Assembly: GCA_016789705.1 (NCBI GenBank)
Contig: JAEUQR010000110.1
Span: 1 to 44,268, forward strand
From: Acidobacteriota bacterium
GTDB taxonomy: Bacteria; Acidobacteriota; Vicinamibacteria; Vicinamibacterales; UBA2999
Direction of reading: 5' to 3'
Length of the DNA: 44,268 bases
Under the pieces are notes generated by a model, which ran no database searches, was not told the origin of the DNA, and worked only from the letters and a program-made list of their open reading frames with translations. The position numbers and the translations under genes were made by a program. Every line of letters starts with the position of its first letter. Position 1 is the stretch's first letter. Below are positions 4,437 to 39,408 of the stretch, piece after piece.

Positions 4437-5207
4437 TCAGCGGCCGCTGTACAAGGCGAAGGCTGCCCCCTGCGGGTCGACGCCCATCACCACCTGCCCG
4501 CCGGGGACATCCGCCGGGCCGTTGACGATGGTGCCACCCGAGGCGCGCACGCGGTCGGCCGCCTGCACGACATCGGGTACCTTCACGTAGAGCAGCCACG
4601 CACTCGGCATCGTGATGCCGGCGGGCTTCCGCATGACGCCGCCGATCGAATGCGCTGCGCCGCGCCCGAACATCTGATAGGTCCCCATCGGCCCCATGTC
4701 CATCGCTTCGGTCGGCTGCCAGCCGAAGAGTGTGGTGTAGAACGCCAGGCCGGCCGCGGGATCGCTCGTATGAAGTTCGAGCCATGCCAGGTCGCCAGGC
4801 GCGGGGGCGGTCTCTGGCCCCGGTTCGCTCTCGGGCGCGTACAGCGAGAACGCCGCGCCGTCCGGATCGCGCATGGTCTGCAGGCGCCCCACAGTGGGCA
4901 CCTCGATCACGGGCGTGAGCGCGCCGCCACCGAGACGCTCCACGGTCGCGGCCCGCGCGTCCAGGTCGTCGACGCCGACGTACACCATCCAGTGCGGGGG
5001 CACGCCCTCGGCCTTCAACTCGTCGGGCAGCGCCATCAATCCGCCGACGGGCGTGCCGTCAGCCCGCAGCCACTCGCTGTAGGGCATGCCCAGCCCTTCG
5101 GAGTCCTTCACGCTCCAGCCAACGACGTGCGTGTAGAAGTTCCGTGCGGCGGCGACGTCGGTGGTCGCGAGTTCGAACCAGAGCGGGCGGCCGAGTCGTG
5201 CGTGCAT
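4437..5207 (-). CDS. VOC-superfamily protein with two glyoxalase-like domains
   Basis: A 256-residue cytoplasmic protein made of two vicinal-oxygen-chelate modules. Domain 1 (about residues 5-118) begins GRPLWFELATTDVAAARNFY. Domain 2 (about 133-250) begins DLAWLELHTSDPAAGLAFY. Each has the beta-alpha-beta-beta-beta signature with a conserved F-Y-x3-(F/V)-G-W turn. This arrangement resembles the mycobacterial Cfp30B group of two-domain glyoxalase-like proteins, whose substrates are mostly unknown. The ATG at 5207 is chosen because GAGGAGG lies just upstream; an open frame extends to 5327 but encodes basic, proline-rich sequence with no family similarity. It is transcribed alone, divergently from the TonB receptor. 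No catalytic reaction is claimed. Confidence 0.9.
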   Translation of the reverse strand: MHARLGRPLWFELATTDVAAARNFYTHVVGWSVKDSEGLGMPYSEWLRADGTPVGGLMALPDELKAEGVPPHWMVYVGVDDLDARAATVERLGGGALTPVIEVPTVGRLQTMRDPDGAAFSLYAPESEPGPETAPAPGDLAWLELHTSDPAAGLAFYTTLFGWQPTEAMDMGPMGTYQMFGRGAAHSIGGVMRKPAGITMPSAWLLYVKVPDVVQAADRVRASGGTIVNGPADVPGGQVVMGVDPQGAAFALYSGR

Positions 5208-28922: not shown

Positions 28923-29006
28923 CGGCATGTCTGCTGCCTGCGCCGTCCCTGCGGCACGTTGTCGCAGCCACGCCCAGGACGTCCGTGACGGCGGCAGGAG
29001 CTGCGA

Positions 29007-29012
29007 TAGGCT
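29007..29012 (+). promoter_or_regulatory. -10-like TAGGCT, 7 nt before the M1 peptidase ATG
   Basis: TAGGCT is followed by exactly 7 nt and the ATG at 29020. A possible -35, GTGACG at 28985-28990, lies 16 bp upstream. The architecture predicts a leaderless mRNA. Confidence 0.5.
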
Positions 29013-29019
29013 AGATGGC

Positions 29020-31356
29020 ATGACCCGATACACAGCATCCGTCGTCGCGTTCGTGCTGGCAATTGTCACGCCCGCCTTCGCCCAGCCACAGGGCGCGCCG
29101 CCCGACAAGTTCCGGCAGCTCGAAGAGATCCTGCCCACGCCGAATGAGCAGCGCACCGCCTCGGGCGCGCCGGGCCGGGCCTACTGGCAGCAGCGCGCCG
29201 ACTACGACATCGACGTCACGCTCGACGACGTGAAGCAGCGCATCACGGGCAAGGAGACGGTGACCTACTACAACCAGTCACCCGACCCGCTGACCTACCT
29301 CTGGCTGCAGCTCGACCAGAACCTGTTCCGCAAGGATTCCGACACGGCGCTCACCGCCCCGGCGCCGTCGCTCGAGCGGCCCACCTTCGAGACCCTCGAT
29401 ACGCTCGTGAACCGCGACTTCGACGGCGGCTTCCAGATCGCCGCGGTGACCGACGCCACCGGCAAGCCCCTGCCGCACACGATCGTGAAGACGATGATGC
29501 GTATCGACCTCGCGGCGCCGCTCGCGCCCGGCAAGTCGGTGGTCTTCGGCGTGGCGTGGAGCTACAACATCAACGACGCCAAGCGTCTCGGCGGCCGCTC
29601 CGGCTACGAGTTCTTCCCGAAGGACGGCAACTACATCTACGAGATCGCGCAGTGGTTTCCGCGCCTGGCCGCCTACAACGACGTCAGCGGCTGGCAGCAC
29701 AAGCAGTTCCTCGGCTCGGGCGAGTTCACGCTCGAGTTCGGCAACTACAAGGTGCGGATCACGGCGCCGAACGATCACGTCGTGGGCGCCACCGGCGTGC
29801 TGCAGAACCCGCAGGCGGTGCTCACCGCGGCGCAACTCCAGCGGCTCGAACAGGCGAAGACGGCCAGCGCGCCCGTGCTCGTCGTGACGCCCGCGGAAGC
29901 CAAGGCGGCGGAAGCCGGCAAGGCCACGGGCACGAAGACCTGGGTGTTCCATGCGGAGAACGTGCGCGATTTCGCCTTTGCCTCGTCGCGCAAGTTCATC
30001 TGGGACGCGCAGGGCCACCGCTCGGGCACGCAGCCGGTGCTGGCGATGTCGTACTACCCGAACGAGGGCAACCCGCTCTGGGCGCAGTACTCGACCGCCG
30101 CCATCATCCACACGCTCAACCTCTACTCGCGGTATTCGTTCGACTATCCGTACCCGATCGCCATCTCGGTGAACGGGCCGGTGGGCGGCATGGAATACCC
30201 GATGATCTGCTTCAACGGGCCGCGTCCGGAGCCCGACGGCACCTACACGGCCCGCACGAAGTACGCCCTCATCTCGGTGGTCATCCACGAGGTGGGCCAC
30301 AACTACTTCCCGATGATCGTCAACACCGACGAGCGGCAGTGGACCTGGATGGACGAAGGCATCAACTCGTTTCTGCAGTTCCTCGCCGAACAGGAGTGGG
30401 AAGACAACTACCCGTCGCGCCGCGGCGAGCCGAAGAACATGGTCGAGTACATGACCGCGCCCGGTCACGACCCGATCATGACCAACTCGGAATCGGTGAA
30501 GGAACTGGGCAACAACGCCTACGGCAAGCCGGCCACCGCGCTCAACATCCTGCGCGAGACGGTGATGGGGCGCGAGCTCTTCGACTTCGCCTTCCGTGAA
30601 TACAGCCGCCGCTGGAAGTTCAAGCGGCCGATGCCGGCCGACTTCTTCCGCACGATGGAAGACGCCTCCGCCATCGACCTCGACTGGTTCTGGCACGGCT
30701 GGTTCTACACGACCGACCACACCGACTTGTCACTCGACGACGTGCGGCATTTCACGCTCAACACGAAGAACCCCGAGACCGAGAAGACGCTGCAGCGCCA
30801 GCAGCAGACGGCGGCTCCCACGACCCTCTCGGCCGAGCGCTACAGGGACACGCCGAAGCTCGTCGAACAGAACCCGGCACTCGCCGACTTCTACAACCGC
30901 TTCGACCCGCTGGCCGTGACCCCCGCCGACCGCGAGGAGTACCAGAAGGTGCTCGGCGCGCTCACCGACAAGGAGAAGGCGCTCATCGGCTCAAACAAGA
31001 ACTTCTACGTGATGCGCTTCTCGAACGTGGGCGGGCTGGTGATGCCGATCATCCTGAAGCTCGACTACGTGGACGGCACGTCCGAGGAGCTGCGCATCCC
31101 GGCCGAGATCTGGCGGCGCGATGCGTCGAAGGTGTCGAAGCTGGTCATCACCGACAAGGTGCTCTCGCAGGTCACGCTCGATCCGAAGCTCGAAACGGCC
31201 GACACGGATCTCAGCAACAACTTCTTTCCGCGCAAGCCCGTGATGACGCGTTTCCAGCTGTTCAAGCAGCAGCAGCAGACCACGCCGAATCCCATGCAGC
31301 AGCTCGAGCGGAAGCCGGGCACCGACGCGCCGCGCCCGCAGGGGCCCGGCCAGTAG
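29020..31356 (+). CDS. M1-family zinc metallopeptidase, secreted
   Basis: A 778-residue exported peptidase. A signal peptide (MTRYTASVVAFVLAIVTPAFA) precedes an M1 N-terminal beta domain (about 60-290, DYDIDVTLDDVKQRITGKET). The catalytic domain has GGMEYP (389-394, the GAMEN equivalent) and HEVGH (423-427) with Glu446 in WMDEGIN, exactly HExxH-x18-E. A less conserved C-terminal part (about 590-778) ends in a Gln/Pro-rich tail. M1 enzymes are mostly aminopeptidases; this secreted Bacteroidota/Acidobacteriota type has no known substrate. TAGGCT sits 7 nt before the ATG. The DUF6702 gene starts 17 bp after its stop, so they form an operon, a neighbourhood I also recall from Bacteroidota. Confidence 0.93.
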   Translation: MTRYTASVVAFVLAIVTPAFAQPQGAPPDKFRQLEEILPTPNEQRTASGAPGRAYWQQRADYDIDVTLDDVKQRITGKETVTYYNQSPDPLTYLWLQLDQNLFRKDSDTALTAPAPSLERPTFETLDTLVNRDFDGGFQIAAVTDATGKPLPHTIVKTMMRIDLAAPLAPGKSVVFGVAWSYNINDAKRLGGRSGYEFFPKDGNYIYEIAQWFPRLAAYNDVSGWQHKQFLGSGEFTLEFGNYKVRITAPNDHVVGATGVLQNPQAVLTAAQLQRLEQAKTASAPVLVVTPAEAKAAEAGKATGTKTWVFHAENVRDFAFASSRKFIWDAQGHRSGTQPVLAMSYYPNEGNPLWAQYSTAAIIHTLNLYSRYSFDYPYPIAISVNGPVGGMEYPMICFNGPRPEPDGTYTARTKYALISVVIHEVGHNYFPMIVNTDERQWTWMDEGINSFLQFLAEQEWEDNYPSRRGEPKNMVEYMTAPGHDPIMTNSESVKELGNNAYGKPATALNILRETVMGRELFDFAFREYSRRWKFKRPMPADFFRTMEDASAIDLDWFWHGWFYTTDHTDLSLDDVRHFTLNTKNPETEKTLQRQQQTAAPTTLSAERYRDTPKLVEQNPALADFYNRFDPLAVTPADREEYQKVLGALTDKEKALIGSNKNFYVMRFSNVGGLVMPIILKLDYVDGTSEELRIPAEIWRRDASKVSKLVITDKVLSQVTLDPKLETADTDLSNNFFPRKPVMTRFQLFKQQQQTTPNPMQQLERKPGTDAPRPQGPGQ

Positions 31357-31373
31357 CCTCACCAGGCACGCCC

Positions 31374-31859
31374 ATGCGTCGCTGGCTGGCTGTGGTCATG
31401 CTGCTGACGGGCCTTGTGCCCGTCGCGGCCGACGCGCACAAGTTCTACGTGAGCCTGACCACGGTGGAACACAACACCGCCGAGCAGTCGCTCGAGATCA
31501 CGATGCGGCTCTTCGCCGACGATCTCGAGGCGGCGGTGGCGCGAGAGACGGGCAAGCCGCTCACGCACGGCCAGCCAGGTTTCGAGGCGGCGGTGTTCGC
31601 CGTGGTGCGGCGCGCCCTCACGGTGCGGCAGGCCGACGGGCAACCGCTCACGCTCGCGTGGGTGGGGCTCGAGAACAAGGTGGACGTGACCTGGGTCTAC
31701 GTCGAGGCGCCGCGGGTGCCGTCCACGACCGGCTTCACGCTGCGCGACACGATCTTCACGGACCTGTTCCCCGAGCAGGTGAACATGGTGCACGTGAAGG
31801 ACGCGCGCGGCCGCCGCGCGATCGACTTCCGCGGCGGCGATTCGTTCAAGCCCTTCTGA
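31374..31859 (+). CDS. DUF6702-family small secreted protein
   Basis: A 161-residue exported protein with signal peptide MRRWLAVVMLLTGLVPVAADA. The mature domain begins HKFYVSLTTVEHNTAEQSLEI, followed by TMRLFADDLEAAV, WVGLENKVDVTWVYVEAP and DLFPEQVNMVHVKDARGRRAI, the defining pattern of DUF6702. The family has no assigned function. It follows the M1 peptidase by 17 bp and converges on a HupE/UreJ_2 gene, a neighbour combination that suggests a shared envelope or metal-related task. The mature protein starts at or near His, so the N-terminal His could take part in metal binding; that is inference only. Confidence 0.85.
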   Translation: MRRWLAVVMLLTGLVPVAADAHKFYVSLTTVEHNTAEQSLEITMRLFADDLEAAVARETGKPLTHGQPGFEAAVFAVVRRALTVRQADGQPLTLAWVGLENKVDVTWVYVEAPRVPSTTGFTLRDTIFTDLFPEQVNMVHVKDARGRRAIDFRGGDSFKPF

Positions 31860-31863
31860 GGCG

Positions 31864-32085
31864 GGCCGCCGTTGTGCCGGCGGGGTGTCCGGTCGTCGGG
31901 CTCCGATGAGTCGCGTCGGTCACTCGCACCTTCCGGCGGCTTGTCCTGCCGTCCAAAGCACTTCTGGGGGCCCCCATCCCCTGATCTGACTGTCACCCGC
32001 ACTCACGGTGCGAGTGTCGGCATTCCGAGCGACGACGACTCATAGTCGCCCGCCGACCGGACACCCCGCCGACCCAACGGCGGCC
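31864..32085. repeat. 222-bp element with long imperfect inverted repeats
   Basis: Arm segments pair in order. 31864-31874 with 32075-32085 match 11/11, and 31878-31895 with 32054-32071 match 18/18 (CGGCGGGGTGTCCGGTCG). 31897-31901 with 32048-32052 match 5/5, 31906-31913 with 32036-32043 match 8/8, and 31921-31930 with 32007-32016 match 10/10. A palindrome TGGGGGCCCCCA (31965-31976) lies near the centre. It fills almost the whole gap between the convergent DUF6702 and HupE/UreJ_2 genes. It may be a two-way terminator or a degenerate MITE-like element. I see no target-site duplication and no coding frame. Confidence 0.75.
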
Positions 32086-32094
32086 GGATGGCGA

Positions 32095-32646
32095 TCAGGG
32101 CAGGAAGGCGCGCTGCACGCACCAGAAGGCGCCCGCAGCCGCAATCGCCGCCGACGCGGGCACAACGACGCGGGCGCGATACCACGGCGCCCGCCGGCAC
32201 CAGGCGAGCGCGGCAAGCAGTGCCGCCACCACGACGAGCTGGCCGCCTTCCACGCCGAGGTTGAAGGCGAGCAGCGACACCAGCAGGTCCTCGGACGGCA
32301 GGCCGAGGCTCACGAGGGCGCCGGCGAAGCCGAGCCCGTGCAGTAGGCCGAAGCCGAAGGCCATCGCCGGCCGACGCCAATGGAAGCGTGCCGTGAAGAT
32401 GTTCTCCGTGGCCACCGCCACGATCGAGAGCGCGATGAGCGGCTCGACCACCGCCGCCGGCATCCGCACGACGCCGGTCACGGCCAGCGCCAGCGTGAGG
32501 GCGTGTGCCACCGTGAACGCGCTGACCTGCCAGACGAGCGGCCGCCACGAGGGCGACGCCAGCACGAGGCTGGTGATGAAGAGCACGTGGTCGAACCCAC
32601 GCGGCAGGATGTGCTCGAAGCCCAGCGTGAGATAGGTGGGGAACAC
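32095..32646 (-). CDS. HupE/UreJ_2-family membrane protein
   Basis: A 183-residue inner-membrane protein with about six helices. The GTG at 32646 is chosen because homology begins immediately (VFPTYLTLGFEHILPRGFDHVLFI) and TACGAT lies 6 nt upstream. The long upstream frame is basic and non-homologous. Polar residues lie within or near helices: His12, Asp19-His20, His48, Glu81, His103 in LLHGLGFAGAL, and Asn129/Glu133 in AFNLGVEGGQL. The classical HupE/UreJ family contains nickel/cobalt permeases; whether the _2 subfamily carries metal is unproven. It converges on DUF6702 and is divergent from the acid phosphatase, with 44 bp between starts. Confidence 0.87.
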   Translation of the reverse strand: MFPTYLTLGFEHILPRGFDHVLFITSLVLASPSWRPLVWQVSAFTVAHALTLALAVTGVVRMPAAVVEPLIALSIVAVATENIFTARFHWRRPAMAFGFGLLHGLGFAGALVSLGLPSEDLLVSLLAFNLGVEGGQLVVVAALLAALAWCRRAPWYRARVVVPASAAIAAAGAFWCVQRAFLP

Positions 32647-32652
32647 GCTGGC

Positions 32653-32658
32653 ATCGTA
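32653..32658 (-). promoter_or_regulatory. -10-like TACGAT, 6 nt before the HupE/UreJ_2 GTG
   Basis: On the minus strand TACGAT, then GCCAGC, then GTG. There is no Shine-Dalgarno. It is back to back with the plus-strand box at 32679. Confidence 0.5.
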
Positions 32659-32678
32659 TCGCGCCGCCGCGACACCGC

Positions 32679-32684
32679 TATGAT
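32679..32684 (+). promoter_or_regulatory. -10 box TATGAT, 6 nt before the acid phosphatase ATG
   Basis: TATGAT (5 of 6 to TATAAT) is followed by 6 nt and the ATG at 32691. No Shine-Dalgarno and no good -35. Confidence 0.55.
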
Positions 32685-32690
32685 TTCGCG

Positions 32691-33434
32691 ATGATGTTCC
32701 GCAGCACTGTCGTCGTCCTGCTGTTCGTGTCCGCGGCGTGCCGCTCCGCCGCCCCGCTGCCCGCACCCACGGCCGCGCCCGCCGCGCCCACGGCCGCCGT
32801 GGCGATACCCGATGCCATTCGCTGGGTGCGCGACGCCGCGGAATATCGTGCCGCCACGCTGCAGGCGTACCGGCTGGCCACGAGCAGCGTCGAAGCCGCC
32901 GCGGCCGGACGCGCCCCCGGCTCGTGGGCCGTCGTGCTCGATGCCGACGAGACGGTCATCAACAACGTCACGTATCAGCTCGAACGGGCACAGCAGGGAC
33001 TCCCCTACTCAAGCGAGAGCTGGGCCGCCTGGGTGCGGCGCCGCGAAGCCACGCCGATCCCCGGGGCGGCGGCATTCCTCGCCCGCGTGCGGGCGCTCGG
33101 CGGGCGCATCGCCATCGTGACCAATCGTCTGCAGTCGGAATGTGCGGACACGGCGGCCGTGTTCGAGCGGCACCAACTGGCACACGACGCACTGCTCTGC
33201 CGGCCCGACGGCGGTCCGTCCGACAAGAATCCGCGGTTCGAAGCGGTGGCGGCGGGAAAGACGCCGGCGAGCGCCACCCCGGTCGAGATTCTCGTGTTCG
33301 TGGGCGACAACATCCTCGACTTCCCGCGACTGTCCCAGCCGTCGGCCCTGGCCGCCGAGGCGGCCCTGGCGCCGTTCGGCACGCGTTACGTCGTGCTGCC
33401 GAACCCCATGTACGGGAGCTGGCAGCCCCGCTAG
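32691..33434 (+). CDS. HAD-superfamily acid phosphatase lipoprotein (class C-like)
   Basis: A 247-residue lipoprotein with a signal peptide ending in FVSAAC (Cys17). An Ala/Pro-rich linker follows, then a HAD phosphatase domain. Motif I is VVLDADETVINN (nucleophile Asp84, Asp86), motif II is AIVTNR (Thr144), motif III is Lys179 in SDKNPRF and motif IV is VGDNILDF (Asp206, Asp210). The DxDET form with an outer-membrane lipoprotein anchor fits class C acid phosphatases such as the e(P4) type, which dephosphorylate nucleotides outside the cytoplasm. Phosphate or nucleoside scavenging is the likely role. TATGAT lies 6 nt upstream, with no Shine-Dalgarno. Receptor C follows on the same strand behind its own promoter. 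Confidence 0.9.
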   Translation: MMFRSTVVVLLFVSAACRSAAPLPAPTAAPAAPTAAVAIPDAIRWVRDAAEYRAATLQAYRLATSSVEAAAAGRAPGSWAVVLDADETVINNVTYQLERAQQGLPYSSESWAAWVRRREATPIPGAAAFLARVRALGGRIAIVTNRLQSECADTAAVFERHQLAHDALLCRPDGGPSDKNPRFEAVAAGKTPASATPVEILVFVGDNILDFPRLSQPSALAAEAALAPFGTRYVVLPNPMYGSWQPR

Positions 33435-33450
33435 ATCCGATCGGACGAGC

Positions 33451-33480
33451 TTGACCGGCGATCCGATTTCGCCGTATCGT
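33451..33480 (+). promoter_or_regulatory. Promoter of receptor C: TTGACC - 18 bp - TATCGT
   Basis: TTGACC (33451-33456) and TATCGT (33475-33480) are separated by 18 bp, a good sigma70-type pair. Transcription would start near 33487, inside the AT-rich palindrome. Confidence 0.55.
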
Positions 33481-33482
33481 TG

Positions 33483-33512
33483 ATATCAATTTTGATGACT
33501 CAAAATTGGTAT
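33483..33512. promoter_or_regulatory. 30-bp AT-rich palindrome, candidate operator for receptor C
   Basis: ATATCAATTTTGA (33483-33495), spacer TGAC, and TCAAAATTGGTAT (33500-33512) are inverted repeats with one mismatch in 13. A second palindrome TTGATATCAA (33480-33489) overlaps it. The AT-rich stretch stands out sharply from its surroundings and covers the predicted transcription start. A dimeric repressor site (for example a metalloregulator) is the simplest reading; it is not a classical Fur box. Confidence 0.65.
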
Positions 33513-35966
33513 TTAGCCAAGGCCGCTCTCTCGGGCCGGCTCCTGGCGCCAGTGACGAGCGCCGTCGTGCGGCTGGTGCTGGCTTCCAGCGTGGCGCTGG
33601 CCCTTGACGCGCCTCACGCGGCCTCGGCGCAGGTCACGACCCTGATCCGCGGCGTGGTCGTGGACGCACAGGACGCGGCCGTACCCGGCGCCACCGTGAC
33701 CCTGCGGCAGCCGTCGAGCGGCCTCGAGCGCGTGGCGGTCTCGGATGCCTCGGGCCACTTCGACCTGCCCAACCTGCCGGTGGGCACGCACGACCTCACC
33801 GTGACACTCGACGGCTTCACACCGGCCACCGCGCGCGTCGTGGCGGCCACGGGCGCACCGGTCGACGTCACGCTGCGCCTCGCCGTGGCGACGATGACCG
33901 ACACGGTGGTGGTGCGCCCTGAGCAGACGGCCGTGGACGACACCACCGCCGGCACCCGGCACGCCGTGAGTGTCACGCGCATCGAGCGCTTGCCGGTGGC
34001 CGGCGCGAGCCGCGGCCTCGAAGCGGTGCTCGTCGGCTTCCCCGGCTTTGCGCAGAACGCCAACGGCGCCATCCACCCGCGCGGAGCGCACAACCAGATG
34101 ACGTATGTCATCGACGGCCTGCCGATCAGCGATCAGCTCACCGGTGCCTTCGCGAACGCGCTCGATGTGGGTGTGGTGCAGACGGCGGAGCTCATGACCG
34201 GCAACATCCCGGCGGAGTTCGGCGGCAAGGTGTCGGGCGTCGCCGTGCTCGGCAGCAGAAGTGGCCTCGGCACGGGCCGGACCTCCACCGGCTCGGTCTC
34301 ACTCGCCGGCGGAGGCTTCGGCACGGCGCAGGGGGCGCTGCAATGGGGCGGTGAACGCGGACGCCTCGGCTACTTCGGGTCGCTCACCTCGATGACCACC
34401 GCGCGGTTCCTCGATCAGGTATCGCGCGACAACCTGCACAACGCCGGCGCCGTCGTGCGCGGCTTCGGGCGCGCCGATGTGCGGCTCACGCCGCAGGACA
34501 CGCTGCGGCTGCACGCCATGGGCGGCACGTCGCGCTTCGAACTCGCCAACCTGCGCTCGCAGGAGGCGGCCGGACAGGATCAGCGGCAGCACCTCGCGGA
34601 TCTCTCGGTGTGGGGCGCGTATCTGCGCCCGCTCGGCATCGCGAGCACGGTGGATGTGACGCTCGGCGCGCGCACGACATCGGCGGAGCTTCGGCCGAGC
34701 GCCGGCGACACGCCGGTCACCGCCGCGCAGGACCGGCGTCTGTCGACCTTCACCGCACAGGCCCGCTACACGCGGCAGGCCGGCCGCGTGAGCGTGCGCG
34801 CCGGGGCCGACGTACAGGCATTCCCCGTGCGCGAGCGCTTCACGATGGCACTCACGTCGTTCGCGCTGAACGTGCCCGGCACCGACGCCTACAACCCGGC
34901 GCTCACCGCGCACGATCTCACGCGCGGCGGCACGCCGTTCCGCTTCGACGAGGCGCGCGCCGGCACCTTCGCGAGTGTGTTCGCGCAGACCACCGCGCAG
35001 CTCGGCGACCTCACCCTCAACGCCGGCCTGCGGCACGACGAGTACCAGTTCCTCGTGGCCGGCCGTCAGCTCCAGCCGCGCGTCGGTGTGTCGTACCGCG
35101 TCGGCGGGCGCGACCTCGTGCTGCGCGCCTCCTACAACCGCACCTTCCAGACGCCGCCGAACGAGAACCTGCTGCTCTCGAACTCCGAGGCCGCCGGACG
35201 TCTCGCGCCAGACAGCGTGCGCGCGGCGCTCGGCAGCGCCACGCGCGCCATCCGCCCGGAGCGTCAGGACGTGTTCGAAGCCGGCGCGCAGTTCGCGCTC
35301 GGCGGACGCGTGACGTTCGACGGTGCCGTCTACCGCAAGCTCTCGCGCGATCAGCAGGACAACAACAACTTCTTCGACACCGGCATCATCTTCCCCACGA
35401 CGCTGGCGCGCCTGAAGGTCACGGGCATGGAGGCGCGCGCCACGCTGCTGCCGCTCCGCGGTGTCTCGGGATCGCTCAGCGTGACATCTGCCCGCGCCAT
35501 CGCCACGCCGCCCTTCACCGGCGGCCTCTTCCTGGGTCAGGAGGCGGTGGACCTGCTCTCCGCAGGACCGTTCGCGATCGACCACGACCAGCGGCTGAGC
35601 GTGCATGCCACGGCGGGCGTCGATCCGTCAGGGCCGTGGTGGATGAGCGCCACCGCGCGTTACGACAGCGGGCTCGTGGCGAACCCCTCGAACCCGGCGC
35701 AGGTGGCAGCCGATCCCGACTTCGCGGACCTGCTGCCATATGTGGACCTCACGGCCGCGACGCCACGCGTCCGGCCGCGCACGATCGTCGATCTCGCAAC
35801 CGGCGTCGACCTCACGAACGGCCGCGGACGCCGCACCTGGGGCGTACAGGCGCAGGTCACGAACCTGCTGAACCGCACGGCGCTCTACAACTTCCAGTCG
35901 GTGTTCGTGGGCACGCGGCTGGTGCAGCCGCGCACGGCGTCGCTGCGCGTCACGCGCTACTTCTGA
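33495..35966 (+). CDS. TonB-dependent receptor C
   Basis: An 823-residue outer-membrane receptor if the ATG at 33495 is used. A GTG at 33552 gives a more compact signal peptide (VTSAVVRLVLASSVALALDA... ending AASAQ) and is an equal candidate, because neither start has a Shine-Dalgarno. The CarboxypepD_reg-like domain (IRGVVVDAQDAAVPGATVTL) is followed by an unusual plug: RLPVAGASRGLEAVLVGFPG, IHPRGAHNQMTYVIDGLPI and ELMTGNIPAEFGGKVSGVAV. This is the acidobacterial type rather than the siderophore type. The barrel ends RTASLRVTRYF. It converges on DinB with 6 bp between stops. The palindrome over its promoter suggests tight regulation; the ligand is unknown. Confidence 0.9.
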   Translation: MTQNWYLAKAALSGRLLAPVTSAVVRLVLASSVALALDAPHAASAQVTTLIRGVVVDAQDAAVPGATVTLRQPSSGLERVAVSDASGHFDLPNLPVGTHDLTVTLDGFTPATARVVAATGAPVDVTLRLAVATMTDTVVVRPEQTAVDDTTAGTRHAVSVTRIERLPVAGASRGLEAVLVGFPGFAQNANGAIHPRGAHNQMTYVIDGLPISDQLTGAFANALDVGVVQTAELMTGNIPAEFGGKVSGVAVLGSRSGLGTGRTSTGSVSLAGGGFGTAQGALQWGGERGRLGYFGSLTSMTTARFLDQVSRDNLHNAGAVVRGFGRADVRLTPQDTLRLHAMGGTSRFELANLRSQEAAGQDQRQHLADLSVWGAYLRPLGIASTVDVTLGARTTSAELRPSAGDTPVTAAQDRRLSTFTAQARYTRQAGRVSVRAGADVQAFPVRERFTMALTSFALNVPGTDAYNPALTAHDLTRGGTPFRFDEARAGTFASVFAQTTAQLGDLTLNAGLRHDEYQFLVAGRQLQPRVGVSYRVGGRDLVLRASYNRTFQTPPNENLLLSNSEAAGRLAPDSVRAALGSATRAIRPERQDVFEAGAQFALGGRVTFDGAVYRKLSRDQQDNNNFFDTGIIFPTTLARLKVTGMEARATLLPLRGVSGSLSVTSARAIATPPFTGGLFLGQEAVDLLSAGPFAIDHDQRLSVHATAGVDPSGPWWMSATARYDSGLVANPSNPAQVAADPDFADLLPYVDLTAATPRVRPRTIVDLATGVDLTNGRGRRTWGVQAQVTNLLNRTALYNFQSVFVGTRLVQPRTASLRVTRYF

Positions 35967-35972
35967 CCGACG

Positions 35973-36470
35973 CTAGCCGCCCACTTCGCGGTAGTAGCGA
36001 ATGAGGTCGAGCGGCGGCGGCGAGTGCCCCATCGCGCGGATCATCGCCGATACCTGGCCGCGGTGGTGGGTGCCGTGATTCACCACGTGCAGCACGATCT
36101 GCCAGAGCGGCGTGCTGTACGGGTTGCCCTTGAGGTCGTGGTAGGCCACCGACACCGACGCGTCCTGCAGCGCGTCGCCCCACGCCTCCCAGCGTGCCAG
36201 GAGCGCCGGCCATTCATGCTGGACGACCGGCCATTGCAGGTCCACGGCGGGATCGAAGAACACCGCCGGCGGCGCGCCCTGGATGCGGCCGAGCCACATG
36301 CGGTCCGCCGCGTAGATATGCGCGAGCGTGCCGAGCACGCTCTTGTCGGCGCTCTTGTGGTCGCGCGTGAGCTCCTCGGGCGAGAGCGCCGCGGCCGCCT
36401 CGACGATACGCGCGGAGGCCCACGTGGTGTAGTGCAGATGCGTGCGCAGGACGGTGACGGGCACGGACAT
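35973..36470 (-). CDS. DinB-family protein
   Basis: A 165-residue cytoplasmic four-helix-bundle protein. The ATG at 36470 is chosen because family similarity begins at once (MSVPVTVLRTHLHYTTWASAR) and TATGCT lies 6 nt upstream. The metal-binding residues of the DinB/YfiT fold are visible: His51 in LAHIYAADRMW, and His132 and His136 in LHVVNHGTHHRGQ. Members include thiol transferases (bacillithiol or mycothiol S-transferases) and many proteins of unknown role, so only the fold is claimed. A longer frame to 36725 lies antisense to the M16 gene and is not supported. It is divergent from the M16 peptidase, 76 bp between starts. Confidence 0.9.
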   Translation of the reverse strand: MSVPVTVLRTHLHYTTWASARIVEAAAALSPEELTRDHKSADKSVLGTLAHIYAADRMWLGRIQGAPPAVFFDPAVDLQWPVVQHEWPALLARWEAWGDALQDASVSVAYHDLKGNPYSTPLWQIVLHVVNHGTHHRGQVSAMIRAMGHSPPPLDLIRYYREVGG

Positions 36471-36476
36471 GCGCCC

Positions 36477-36482
36477 AGCATA
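36477..36482 (-). promoter_or_regulatory. -10-like TATGCT, 6 nt before the DinB ATG
   Basis: On the minus strand TATGCT, then GGGCGC, then ATG. No Shine-Dalgarno is present. Confidence 0.5.
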
Positions 36483-36535
36483 CCGCCGGGCGCCCTGCCC
36501 ACGGGAAACTGCCGGCCGCCGGTGCCAGCTGCGGA

Positions 36536-36541
36536 GATACT
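36536..36541 (+). promoter_or_regulatory. -10-like GATACT, 5 nt before the M16 peptidase ATG
   Basis: GATACT, then GAGGC, then the ATG at 36547. The spacing is one base shorter than in the stronger cases. A weak GGAG lies at 36533-36536, so leadered initiation is also possible. Confidence 0.3.
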
Positions 36542-36546
36542 GAGGC

Positions 36547-39408
36547 ATGCACCGTCCCTCGATGCGTCCCCGTCCGTGGCTGCTCGCCTGCGCCGTGCTC
36601 GGCGCCGCCAGCCAGCTCGTCATCGCGCAGAGTGCCGTCACGCCGCCTCTGCCGCCCCGCGTGCCGGCGCCGACGCTGGCGCCCGGCGACACGATTGCGG
36701 TGGATCCGCAGATCACGGTCGGCACGCTGCCGAACGGCCTGCGCTACTACGTGCGCCCGAACGGACAGCCGCGCGGCCGCGCGGAACTGCGGCTCGTCGT
36801 GAAGACCGGGTCGGTGCTCGAGGACGACGACCAGCGCGGCCTGGCCCACTTCGTCGAGCACATGGCCTTCAACGGCACGACGCACTTCCCGGGCAACGCG
36901 ATCGCCACGTTCATGCAGGGCATCGGCATGCGCTTCGGCGCCCATGTCAACGCGCACACGAGCTTCGACGAAACGGTGTACGAACTGCAGGTGCCCACCG
37001 ATCCCGAGGTGCTCGACCAGGCGCTGCTCATGATGGAAGACTGGGCGCGCGGCGTCAGCTTCTCCCCCGAAGAGATCGACAAGGAGCGGGGCGTCATCCT
37101 CGAGGAGTGGCGGCTCGGCCTCGGCGCCGACGCGCGCATGCAGAACACCGTGATGCCCGTGCTGCTGCGCGGGTCGCGCTACGCGGAGCGTTCACCCATC
37201 GGCCTGCCCGACGTCATCCGCTCGGCGCCGTACGCCCGCCTGCGACAGTTCTACGCCGATTGGTACCGGCCGGATCTCATGGCCGTCATCGCCGTGGGCG
37301 ACTTCGACCGCGCGGCCATGGAGGCCCGCATCAAGGCGCACTTCGCGCCGATGCCCGCGGCCGTCTCGCCGCGGCCGCGCACCGCCCACACCGTGCCCGG
37401 TCACCCCGGCACGCTCTACGTCGTGGCCACCGACCGCGAGGCGCGCGCCACCACGGTGGGCCTGATCGGCAAGATGCCCGCGCGTGACCAGCGCACCGTG
37501 GGCGTCTATCGCCAGCAGATGGTGGAGCGGCTGTTTGCCGGCATGCTGAACGACCGGCTGGACGAGATCGCCCGCACGCCTGGCGCGCCGTTCCAGGCGG
37601 CCCGTGCCTCACGCGGCCTCTTCGTGCGCACGATGGAAGCTACGTCGATGCAGGCGCTCGTGGCCGATGGCGGCGCCGAGCGGGGGCTGGCGGCGCTCGC
37701 CACCGAGGCCGCACGGGTCGCCCGCTTCGGCTTCACGGCCACGGAGCTGGCCCGGCAGAAGGTGAGCAGCCAGCGCTATCTGCAGCAGGCGCTCGCCGAG
37801 AAGGACACGAACCCCTCGGCGCCCCTCGCCGAAGAGTTCATCCGCAACTTCATGAACGACGAGCCGCTCCCCGGCATCGTGGTCGAACAGCGCATGGCGC
37901 AGCAGCTCATGCCCGGCATCACGCTCGAGGAAGTGAACCGGCTGGCCGCCACCTGGCTGCCGGACGCAAGCCGCGTCGTGGTCGTGAACGCGCCCGAGCG
38001 TGCGGGCGTCGTGGCCCCGACGCAGGCGTCACTCGCCGGCGCACTGGCCGGCATCGACACCCGCGCGCTGACGGCCTACGTGGACAAGGTGAACACGGCG
38101 CCGCTTCTCGATCCGCTGCCGTCGCCCGGCCGCGTCACGGCCACGACCACCAACACCCCGCTCGGCCTCACGGAATGGCGCCTGTCGAACGGCGCGCGCG
38201 TCGTGCTGAAACCCACGACCTTCAAGGCCGACGAAGTGCTGTTCCGGGCGGTGAGTCCGGGCGGCACGTCGCTCGCGGCGGATGCCGACTTCGTGGCCGC
38301 GGTGACGGCGGAAGACGTGGTGTCGGAGGGCGGACTGGGCCGCCTCTCGCTGACCGACCTCGAGAAGGCGATGTCCACGCGGAACGTGGCCGTGCGCGCC
38401 GACATCGGCTCGACCGACGAAGGGCTGGCCGGCGGCGCCTCGCGCGACGATCTCGAGACGATGTTTCAGCTCATCCACCTGAACTTCACGGCGCCCCGCG
38501 CCGATCGCACCGCGTTCTCGGTGCTCACGGCCAATCTGAAGCGCATGCTCGCCAACCAGGAAGCCGAGCCCGACGCCGTCTTCGAACGCGCCGTGGTGTC
38601 GGCGCTCACCGGCGACCATCCGCGCGCCCGGCCGCTCACGCCGGCGATGGTGGACCAGATGAACCTCGATCGCTCGCTCGCCTTCTACAAGGATCGGTTC
38701 GCCGACGCCAGCGACTTCACGTTCGTCTTCGTCGGCAGTTTCGAGGTCGAGGCGATGCGGCCGCTCGTCGAGCGGTATCTCGCGTCATTGCCCTCGCTCG
38801 GCCGCCGCGAGGCGCCGCGGGACGTCGGCATTCGGCCGCCGCAGACGGTCGTGCGCCGCGAGGTGCGCAAGGGCGTCGAGCCGAAGAGTCAGGTGCGCAT
38901 CGTGTTCTCGGGGCCCTTCGAGAACACCGAGGCCAACCGCCTGCTCGTCTCGACGATGGCGGCGACGCTCAGCGGCAACCTGCATCGCACCCTGCGGGAA
39001 GACGAGGGCGGCACCTACGGCGTGAGCGTGGAGCCGGTATTCGGCTTCCGTCCGGTGCCCGAGTACCGCGTGTCGATCAGCTTCGGATGCGACCCGGCAC
39101 GCGTCGACGCGCTCGTCGCCGACGCCTGGCGCGTCGTCACGGCGTTCAAGGAGACCGGTCCATCGCGCGGACAGCTCGCCGACGGCCGCCTCGCGGCGAT
39201 TCGTGACCTCGAGACGAACCTCCAGCAGAACCCGTACTGGCTGAACCGGCTCACGCAGGCCATCGCGCGCGACGAAGACATGGCCACAGCCATCGACCCG
39301 CGCGGCTTCTACGACACGCTCACCGTGGAGGCCGTGCGCGACGCCGCCCGCCGCTATCTCGACGACACGCGCTACGTGCAGGTCATCCTGCGGCCCGAGC
39401 AGCGCTGA
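36547..39408 (+). CDS. M16-family zinc peptidase (pitrilysin/insulinase type), secreted
   Basis: A 953-residue exported protein with signal peptide MHRPSMRPRPWLLACAVLGAASQLVIA. The N-terminal M16 domain carries the inverted zinc motif H101-FVE-H105 in LAHFVEHMAFNGTTHF. The downstream acidic helix is EEIDKERGVILEEW, where Glu180 and Glu187 match the conserved pair and Glu187 is the likely zinc ligand. An inactive-type second half begins about residue 535 (LTEWRLSNGARVVLKP) and has no HxxEH, as usual for two-domain M16 enzymes. It probably degrades short peptides in the periplasm. It stands alone between the divergent DinB gene and the convergent M28 peptidase (21 bp away). Confidence 0.94.
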   Translation: MHRPSMRPRPWLLACAVLGAASQLVIAQSAVTPPLPPRVPAPTLAPGDTIAVDPQITVGTLPNGLRYYVRPNGQPRGRAELRLVVKTGSVLEDDDQRGLAHFVEHMAFNGTTHFPGNAIATFMQGIGMRFGAHVNAHTSFDETVYELQVPTDPEVLDQALLMMEDWARGVSFSPEEIDKERGVILEEWRLGLGADARMQNTVMPVLLRGSRYAERSPIGLPDVIRSAPYARLRQFYADWYRPDLMAVIAVGDFDRAAMEARIKAHFAPMPAAVSPRPRTAHTVPGHPGTLYVVATDREARATTVGLIGKMPARDQRTVGVYRQQMVERLFAGMLNDRLDEIARTPGAPFQAARASRGLFVRTMEATSMQALVADGGAERGLAALATEAARVARFGFTATELARQKVSSQRYLQQALAEKDTNPSAPLAEEFIRNFMNDEPLPGIVVEQRMAQQLMPGITLEEVNRLAATWLPDASRVVVVNAPERAGVVAPTQASLAGALAGIDTRALTAYVDKVNTAPLLDPLPSPGRVTATTTNTPLGLTEWRLSNGARVVLKPTTFKADEVLFRAVSPGGTSLAADADFVAAVTAEDVVSEGGLGRLSLTDLEKAMSTRNVAVRADIGSTDEGLAGGASRDDLETMFQLIHLNFTAPRADRTAFSVLTANLKRMLANQEAEPDAVFERAVVSALTGDHPRARPLTPAMVDQMNLDRSLAFYKDRFADASDFTFVFVGSFEVEAMRPLVERYLASLPSLGRREAPRDVGIRPPQTVVRREVRKGVEPKSQVRIVFSGPFENTEANRLLVSTMAATLSGNLHRTLREDEGGTYGVSVEPVFGFRPVPEYRVSISFGCDPARVDALVADAWRVVTAFKETGPSRGQLADGRLAAIRDLETNLQQNPYWLNRLTQAIARDEDMATAIDPRGFYDTLTVEAVRDAARRYLDDTRYVQVILRPEQR

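Follow-up and report, generated by a model that had tools for sequence, protein, structure and literature searches.

What acts at the AT-rich palindrome that overlies the promoter of receptor C, a TonB-dependent receptor gene in a Vicinamibacterales genome? The gene lies in a window of 44,268 nucleotides (the whole stretch of DNA analysed), and an initial annotation had read the palindrome as a repressor site. The passage of manganese over the Gram-negative outer membrane is little explored, with a few receptors (MnoT, a Stenotrophomonas TonB-dependent receptor) and porins (MnoP) implicated. From comparisons with related genomes and with known operators, we predict with high confidence that a repressor of the DtxR/TroR type, probably activated by Mn(II) or Mn/Fe(II), uses the palindrome as its operator and would thereby block production of a TonB-dependent metal receptor.

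The palindrome, the promoter and the gene start

The 30-mer at positions 33483-33512, ATATCAATTTTGATGACTCAAAATTGGTAT, is made up of a left arm ATATCAATTTTGA, a TGAC centre and a right arm TCAAAATTGGTAT, and as first described it forms a 13+4+13 palindrome with one mismatch (12 of 13 arm pairs). It falls in the AT-richest stretch of a window with a GC content of 69.5%; when the whole window was scanned, all 30-mers with at least 22 A/T were confined to positions 33475-33517. Palindrome length was dropped as stand-alone evidence, since about 1.5 places with a palindrome of equal length are expected per Markov-shuffled window, and GC-rich palindromes of such length also occur in the real window, at 31413 and 43605. 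An AT-rich palindrome (at least 18 A/T among the 26 arm bases) was found in none of 200 Markov shuffles.

Comparison with relatives narrowed the conserved element. The 13-bp arms do pair at 33483-33512, but the conserved core is shorter, ATTTTGA-N4-TCAAAAT, present here as ATTTTGA-TGAC-TCAAAAT at 33489-33506 (a DtxR/TroR-type box, no strand assigned). TTTTGA-N4-TCAAAA is common to 57 sites in related genomes and the next position prefers A/T, while the outermost 5 or 6 positions of each arm show no conservation across all 57, so that the 13-bp arms were dropped as the conserved unit for pooled sites. At receptor and porin sites the outer arms do form a palindrome and covary, with 64 pairs where 43.8 are expected; this test is inflated by sequence relatedness, yet the dtxR sites of related genomes give no such excess. 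Because wobble pairs are not in excess, the covariation is probably a matter of DNA, and the outer-arm pairing perhaps marks a wider footprint or a stronger site.

The same pairing might instead act in the mRNA, as a 5′-terminal hairpin that exposes or masks the start codon, or that makes the transcript more stable. Folded as RNA, the palindrome gives a 13-bp hairpin (−10.8 kcal/mol, z −5.5) whose pairing is perfect in G003 and G004, the two congeneric species with the receptor, and the outer-arm covariation would agree with such a role. However, every DNA palindrome would fold likewise, G-T pairs number 17 vs. 15.8 in shuffles (no enrichment, and thus no RNA-specific signal), the ATG in the loop is not conserved, and the same core also precedes dtxR and occurs between divergent genes. 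We therefore regard a role in the mRNA as very improbable.

The promoter elements reported earlier were found as described: a putative −35 element, TTGACC (33451-33456, forward strand), and a putative −10 element, TATCGT (33475-33480, forward strand), with an 18-bp spacer. TTGAC and TATCGT are kept at the same places in G003 and G004, together with the palindrome, while sequence farther upstream is not kept. Between TATCGT and the palindrome there are two bases, and the operator core covers the predicted transcription start of receptor C. The gene itself (33495-35966, forward strand) has four candidate start codons: TTG at 33480, TTG at 33492, ATG at 33495 and GTG at 33552. The initial annotation had the palindrome cover the first ATG, and the ATG at 33495 does overlap the 4-base centre. 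This ATG is not conserved (G003 has GAGTA there). Translation may therefore begin at another codon, and we rejected the ATG as a settled start.

The upstream neighbour, a gene for a HAD acid phosphatase of class B (PF03767; 32691-33434, forward strand), stops 54 bp short of the operator core. At that distance from a stop codon the palindrome could in principle be a terminator of the phosphatase gene, or it could be a chance palindrome. Its stem is AT-rich, unlike that of an intrinsic terminator, the shuffles did not reproduce it, and conservation in orthologous promoters, with a second copy at dtxR, already refutes both readings, to which we assign a negligible probability.

The gene order in the window from 28927 to 39408 (peptidase M1-like, DUF6702, acid phosphatase, receptor C, M16 peptidase) is the same in G004 (L041), and an M16 gene also lies downstream of the receptor in G003 (L039). 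A gene with a periplasmic siderophore/B12-type binding-protein domain is located about 7 kb upstream in the window.

A second genomic copy and a DtxR-family regulator

The genome (5.03 Mb, 199 contigs) contains exactly two TTTTGA-N4-TCAAAA sites. The second (contig 132, 14338-14353) occupies the short gap between a divergent dtxR-family regulator gene (contig 132, 14421-15149) and a feoA-feoB operon. The search for further copies that the initial annotation had proposed returned this one in the genome and others in orthologous promoters, rather than none. The copy at dtxR/feo, the orthologous promoters and the association with the DtxR family strongly support the earlier proposal that the palindrome would serve as a repressor operator on the receptor promoter.

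The regulator gene encodes a protein of 242 aa with three domains above cut-off: PF01325 (Fe_dep_repress HTH, 41.5 bits), PF02742 (Fe_dep_repr_C dimerisation, 109.7 bits) and PF04023 (FeoA/SH3-like, 48.9 bits). Its relatives in the PDB are 5zr4, 8pvt and ScaR. MntR of the B. subtilis/E. coli type, which is strict for Mn, has Asp8 and Glu11 as metal ligands and no SH3 domain. In the present regulator both ligands are absent, replaced by Asn and Lys in 40/40 orthologues, and a FeoA domain is present. Also invariant in the 40 are H77, E99, E102 and H103, as well as DtxR E83 and H98, and Glu rather than Cys stands at DtxR position 102. The regulator scores under the cut-off of the NCBIfam MntR models (180 vs. 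350 bits for the Mn-regulator model). On these features it is classified as a DtxR/MntR family member, not a strict B. subtilis/E. coli-type MntR.

On the opposite side of the second site lies a gene for a 342-aa FeoA/DtxR-like fusion, followed by feoB. This fusion (L003, 13304-14332, minus strand) carries DtxR dimerisation and FeoA domains, gives no significant HTH match and sits directly before feoB; it may serve as a metal-sensing FeoA partner instead of binding DNA as a regulator. Apart from the regulator and this fusion, the genome encodes no Fe_dep_repr_C protein, but it does encode two Fur-family proteins.

In related soil bacteria the box recurs at dtxR. TTTTGA-N4-TCAAAA occurs at one to four sites in 39/59 of these genomes vs. 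1/59 for a reversed control pattern. Site context was read from the 10-kb flanks of the sites. Of 32 site-bearing dtxR loci, all picked via a perfect site, 31 have the core at a distance of 44-89 bp upstream of the regulator gene. Eight dtxR orthologues come from genomes that lack a perfect site: in three of them a site with one mismatch stands 69 bp upstream, and in the other five there is no box upstream (G011, G015, G053, G054 and G058). The divergent partner at dtxR loci is FeoA-DtxR/FeoB (eight loci), a small multicopper oxidase (MCO), usually with a ZIP-like transporter, or MntH (seven loci); the MntH that was tested exceeds the cut-off of the NCBIfam Mn-uptake model (627 vs. 430 bits). 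A wider scan of the phylum with ATTTTGA-N4-TCAAAAT found 8 genomes outside the order vs. 3 with the control pattern, which is near background, so the box appears to be essentially a trait of the order Vicinamibacterales. Our literature search found no paper connecting Vicinamibacteria and DtxR.

A Fur, Zur or other non-DtxR regulator might be thought to bind here, given that Fur-family proteins are encoded in the genome and that the promoter concerned is that of a TonB receptor gene. The match to a 19-bp Fur box (GATAATGATAATCATTATC) is 11/19, a level that 18% of shuffles equal, and the box tracks dtxR, standing upstream of it at 31 of the 32 loci; we see scant likelihood in a site of this kind. 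The Corynebacterium (C. diphtheriae) DtxR box (TTAGGTTAGCCTAACCTAA) matches at 9/19, equalled by 82% of shuffles, and the consensus sequences of B. subtilis MntR and of IRO/RirA match no better than shuffles. The absence of a textbook match noted earlier thus stands for Fur, C. diphtheriae DtxR and B. subtilis MntR, but not for TroR of Treponema. Against the TroR operators of T. denticola and T. pallidum, taken from oligonucleotides in PMC2628430, the site matches at 16/19 in each case, its match to the core TroR-type dyad is 14/14, and none of 500 shuffles does as well.

By sequence, then, the operator is TroR-like. The T. denticola operator has the same TTTTGA-N4-TCAAAA core and its mutation lowered repression by TroR, which responds to Mn and Fe (PMC2628430). 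The likeness extends to the protein, since both regulators carry Glu at DtxR position 102 and end in an SH3/FeoA-like domain, and to the position of the operator, which in the tro operon is at a metal-import promoter and here at the promoter of a putative metal-uptake gene. The systems differ in their targets: Treponema TroR acts on an ABC importer encoded in the tro operon itself. The present regulator, from another phylum, has FeoAB, MntH or MCO/ZIP as its divergent neighbour, and outer-membrane protein genes carry the box as well. DR2539 of Deinococcus radiodurans, a dual Mn/Fe repressor, offers a second comparison, by residues and domains rather than by operator sequence: it shares Lys at MntR position 11, DtxR His98, an SH3-like domain and control of mntH, according to the accessible portion of PMC3327659, in which no outer-membrane receptor target is reported for it.

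Receptor C orthologues and an alternating porin

The only Pfam domain found on receptor C is an N-terminal carboxypeptidase-regulatory-like domain (PF13620), and the Pfam Plug and barrel models are silent on it. Its AlphaFold model (15 orthologues, pLDDT 73) has a barrel, and the best Foldseek matches of the model are PqqU, PirA, BtuB and FrpB (E about 1e-23 to 1e-27 for PqqU, BtuB and FrpB). In its modelled fold, with plug and beta-barrel, receptor C is a TonB-dependent outer-membrane receptor.

Receptor C is present in 15/162 genomes of the order (the copy studied here and fourteen at 55-90% identity). The box is at the gene start in 13 of these 15 with up to two mismatches (12/15 within one), and is absent from six paralogues at 31-36% identity. 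In one genome (G010) the receptor adjoins dtxR and both genes have the box. In the two exceptions, G012 and G023, the divergent neighbour of the receptor is an E. coli-type MntR (187 and 179 bits with NF008273, whose cut-off is 153), and the box is of the type ATGTAGC-N4-GCTACAT, with one mismatch in G012 (ATGTAGCCTCGGTTACAT) and three, a weaker case, in G023. No orthologue of the regulator scored above 36 bits in these two assemblies, which are only 81-83% complete. Receptor orthologues from Bryobacterales (~50% identity) show yet another box, TTTAGG-N4-CCTAAA, which 17/63 start windows contain, compared with 3 sites over 304 kb of other sequence. Since three distinct boxes stand at the starts of orthologues, we conclude that one receptor family is under three predicted operators, all of the DtxR-family type, the Bryobacterales one being DtxR-like by its box sequence.

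In the same-genus species without receptor C (G001 and G002), the second box sits on a Porin_O_P-type gene. This porin is found in 41/162 genomes and receptor C in 15/162, never together (hypergeometric P = 0.0099, phylogeny uncorrected), and the best-sampled genera, g1 and g2, each include porin-type and receptor-type genomes. A TTTTGA box with up to two mismatches is present at 18 of the 35 porin loci examined, one of the 35 lies directly after dtxR, and two loci (G041 and G058) have an MntR-type box beside an E. coli-type MntR. At about 13 of the 35, mostly from one family, no box of any kind was found. Receptor and porin start windows taken together (8.0 kb) contain 29 sites with at most one mismatch vs. 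8 in the other 202 kb. The simplest reading of these patterns is that receptor C and the porin would be alternative outer-membrane entries for one metal, with the porin a candidate Mn channel. The box singles out a receptor family and a porin family as candidates that could stand in for each other with that metal, and provides a readable marker of a metal regulon in the Acidobacteriota order Vicinamibacterales, which is poorly cultured.

Proposed mechanism and metal

We infer binding, the sensing metal and the transported substrate, and the position of the box together with the regulator family argues for repression rather than activation. The repressor would be the protein encoded on contig 132 beside feoA-feoB. 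Once the cytoplasm holds enough Mn(II), or Mn(II)/Fe(II), the metal-loaded dimer of this protein would bind ATTTTGA-N4-TCAAAAT over the predicted transcription start and exclude RNA polymerase, turning receptor C off. When the metal is scarce, the repressor would release the site and receptor C would be made, allowing the metal, free or chelated, to cross the outer membrane; import over the inner membrane would then proceed through FeoB here, a step that in relatives would fall to MntH or a ZIP transporter. The copy of the box that lies between dtxR and feoAB would provide co-regulation and autoregulation.

The metal is probably Mn or Mn/Fe, and a dual Mn/Fe response is quite possible. Porins and ZIP proteins are known routes for Mn (reviewed in PMC9334652), which favours manganese. 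Manganese is also favoured by MntH, which takes the place of FeoB opposite dtxR at seven loci, and by the E. coli-type MntR that in other genomes adjoins receptor C and porin orthologues with MntR-like boxes. The same operator and repressor might nevertheless serve an IdeR-like iron regulon, with iron as signal and substrate and receptor C as a receptor for a siderophore or iron chelate. DtxR and IdeR sense iron, and iron may be the main signal here, as suggested by FeoA-FeoB divergent from dtxR in this genus, where FeoB is annotated as an iron transporter; the siderophore/B12-type gene ~7 kb upstream and the likeness of the Bryobacterales box to DtxR/IdeR boxes also count for iron. Against it, besides MntH and MntR, the regulator has Glu instead of Cys at DtxR position 102, two Fur proteins are on hand for iron, and ferric siderophores are not expected to pass a porin. 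We consider an iron regulon unlikely, though well ahead of the mRNA and Fur readings, and retain manganese, alone or with iron, as the preferred metal.

TonB-dependent receptors have been tied to Mn supply in other bacteria. The TBDR-pTFP locus of Stenotrophomonas maltophilia is under MntR, and its receptor is of the CQNC type, with a CQNC motif in the plug (PMC13217887). The regulator and box differ from those described here, and receptor C was rejected as a CQNC-type Mn receptor, there being no invariant cysteine among its 15 orthologues. MnoT of Burkholderia, linked to Mn supply, is likened by description and not by sequence. The same holds for MnoP of Bradyrhizobium, which is under another regulator, Mur. 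MnoP is an outer-membrane Mn channel, comparable to the role proposed for the Porin_O_P-type porin (review PMC9334652).

What is new here is a regulon and a candidate manganese receptor family; the kind of operator is already known. We hold it evenly balanced whether a family of Mn-acquiring TonB-dependent receptors, widespread in Acidobacteriota and functionally interchangeable with the Porin_O_P-type porin, has receptor C as its first recognised member. Receptor and porin would then share a single outer-membrane slot of a Mn regulon in which regulator and operator have been exchanged among three DtxR-family solutions: the TroR-like one with TTTTGA-N4-TCAAAA, the E. coli-type MntR one with ATGTAGC-N4-GCTACAT, and the DtxR-like one with TTTAGG-N4-CCTAAA.

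The box was also observed beside other genes of the order. In other families, non-orthologous TonB-dependent receptors start right after it (L077, L079, L082 and L085, site near 5001), and in two other families ICMT/PEMT (isoprenylcysteine methyltransferase-like) genes lie beside it (L076 and L081, around 5001). At L043, L045, L052 and L060 (sites 5001, 4533, 5001 and 5001) it adjoins a gene with a Yip1 domain, with a divergent TraF_2-like gene across the box in three of the four and an HlyD/CusB-type membrane-fusion gene at L060; L054, L056 and L063 are possibly also loci of the Yip1 type. A metal export or envelope operon is a possible identity for this Yip1/TraF_2-like target.
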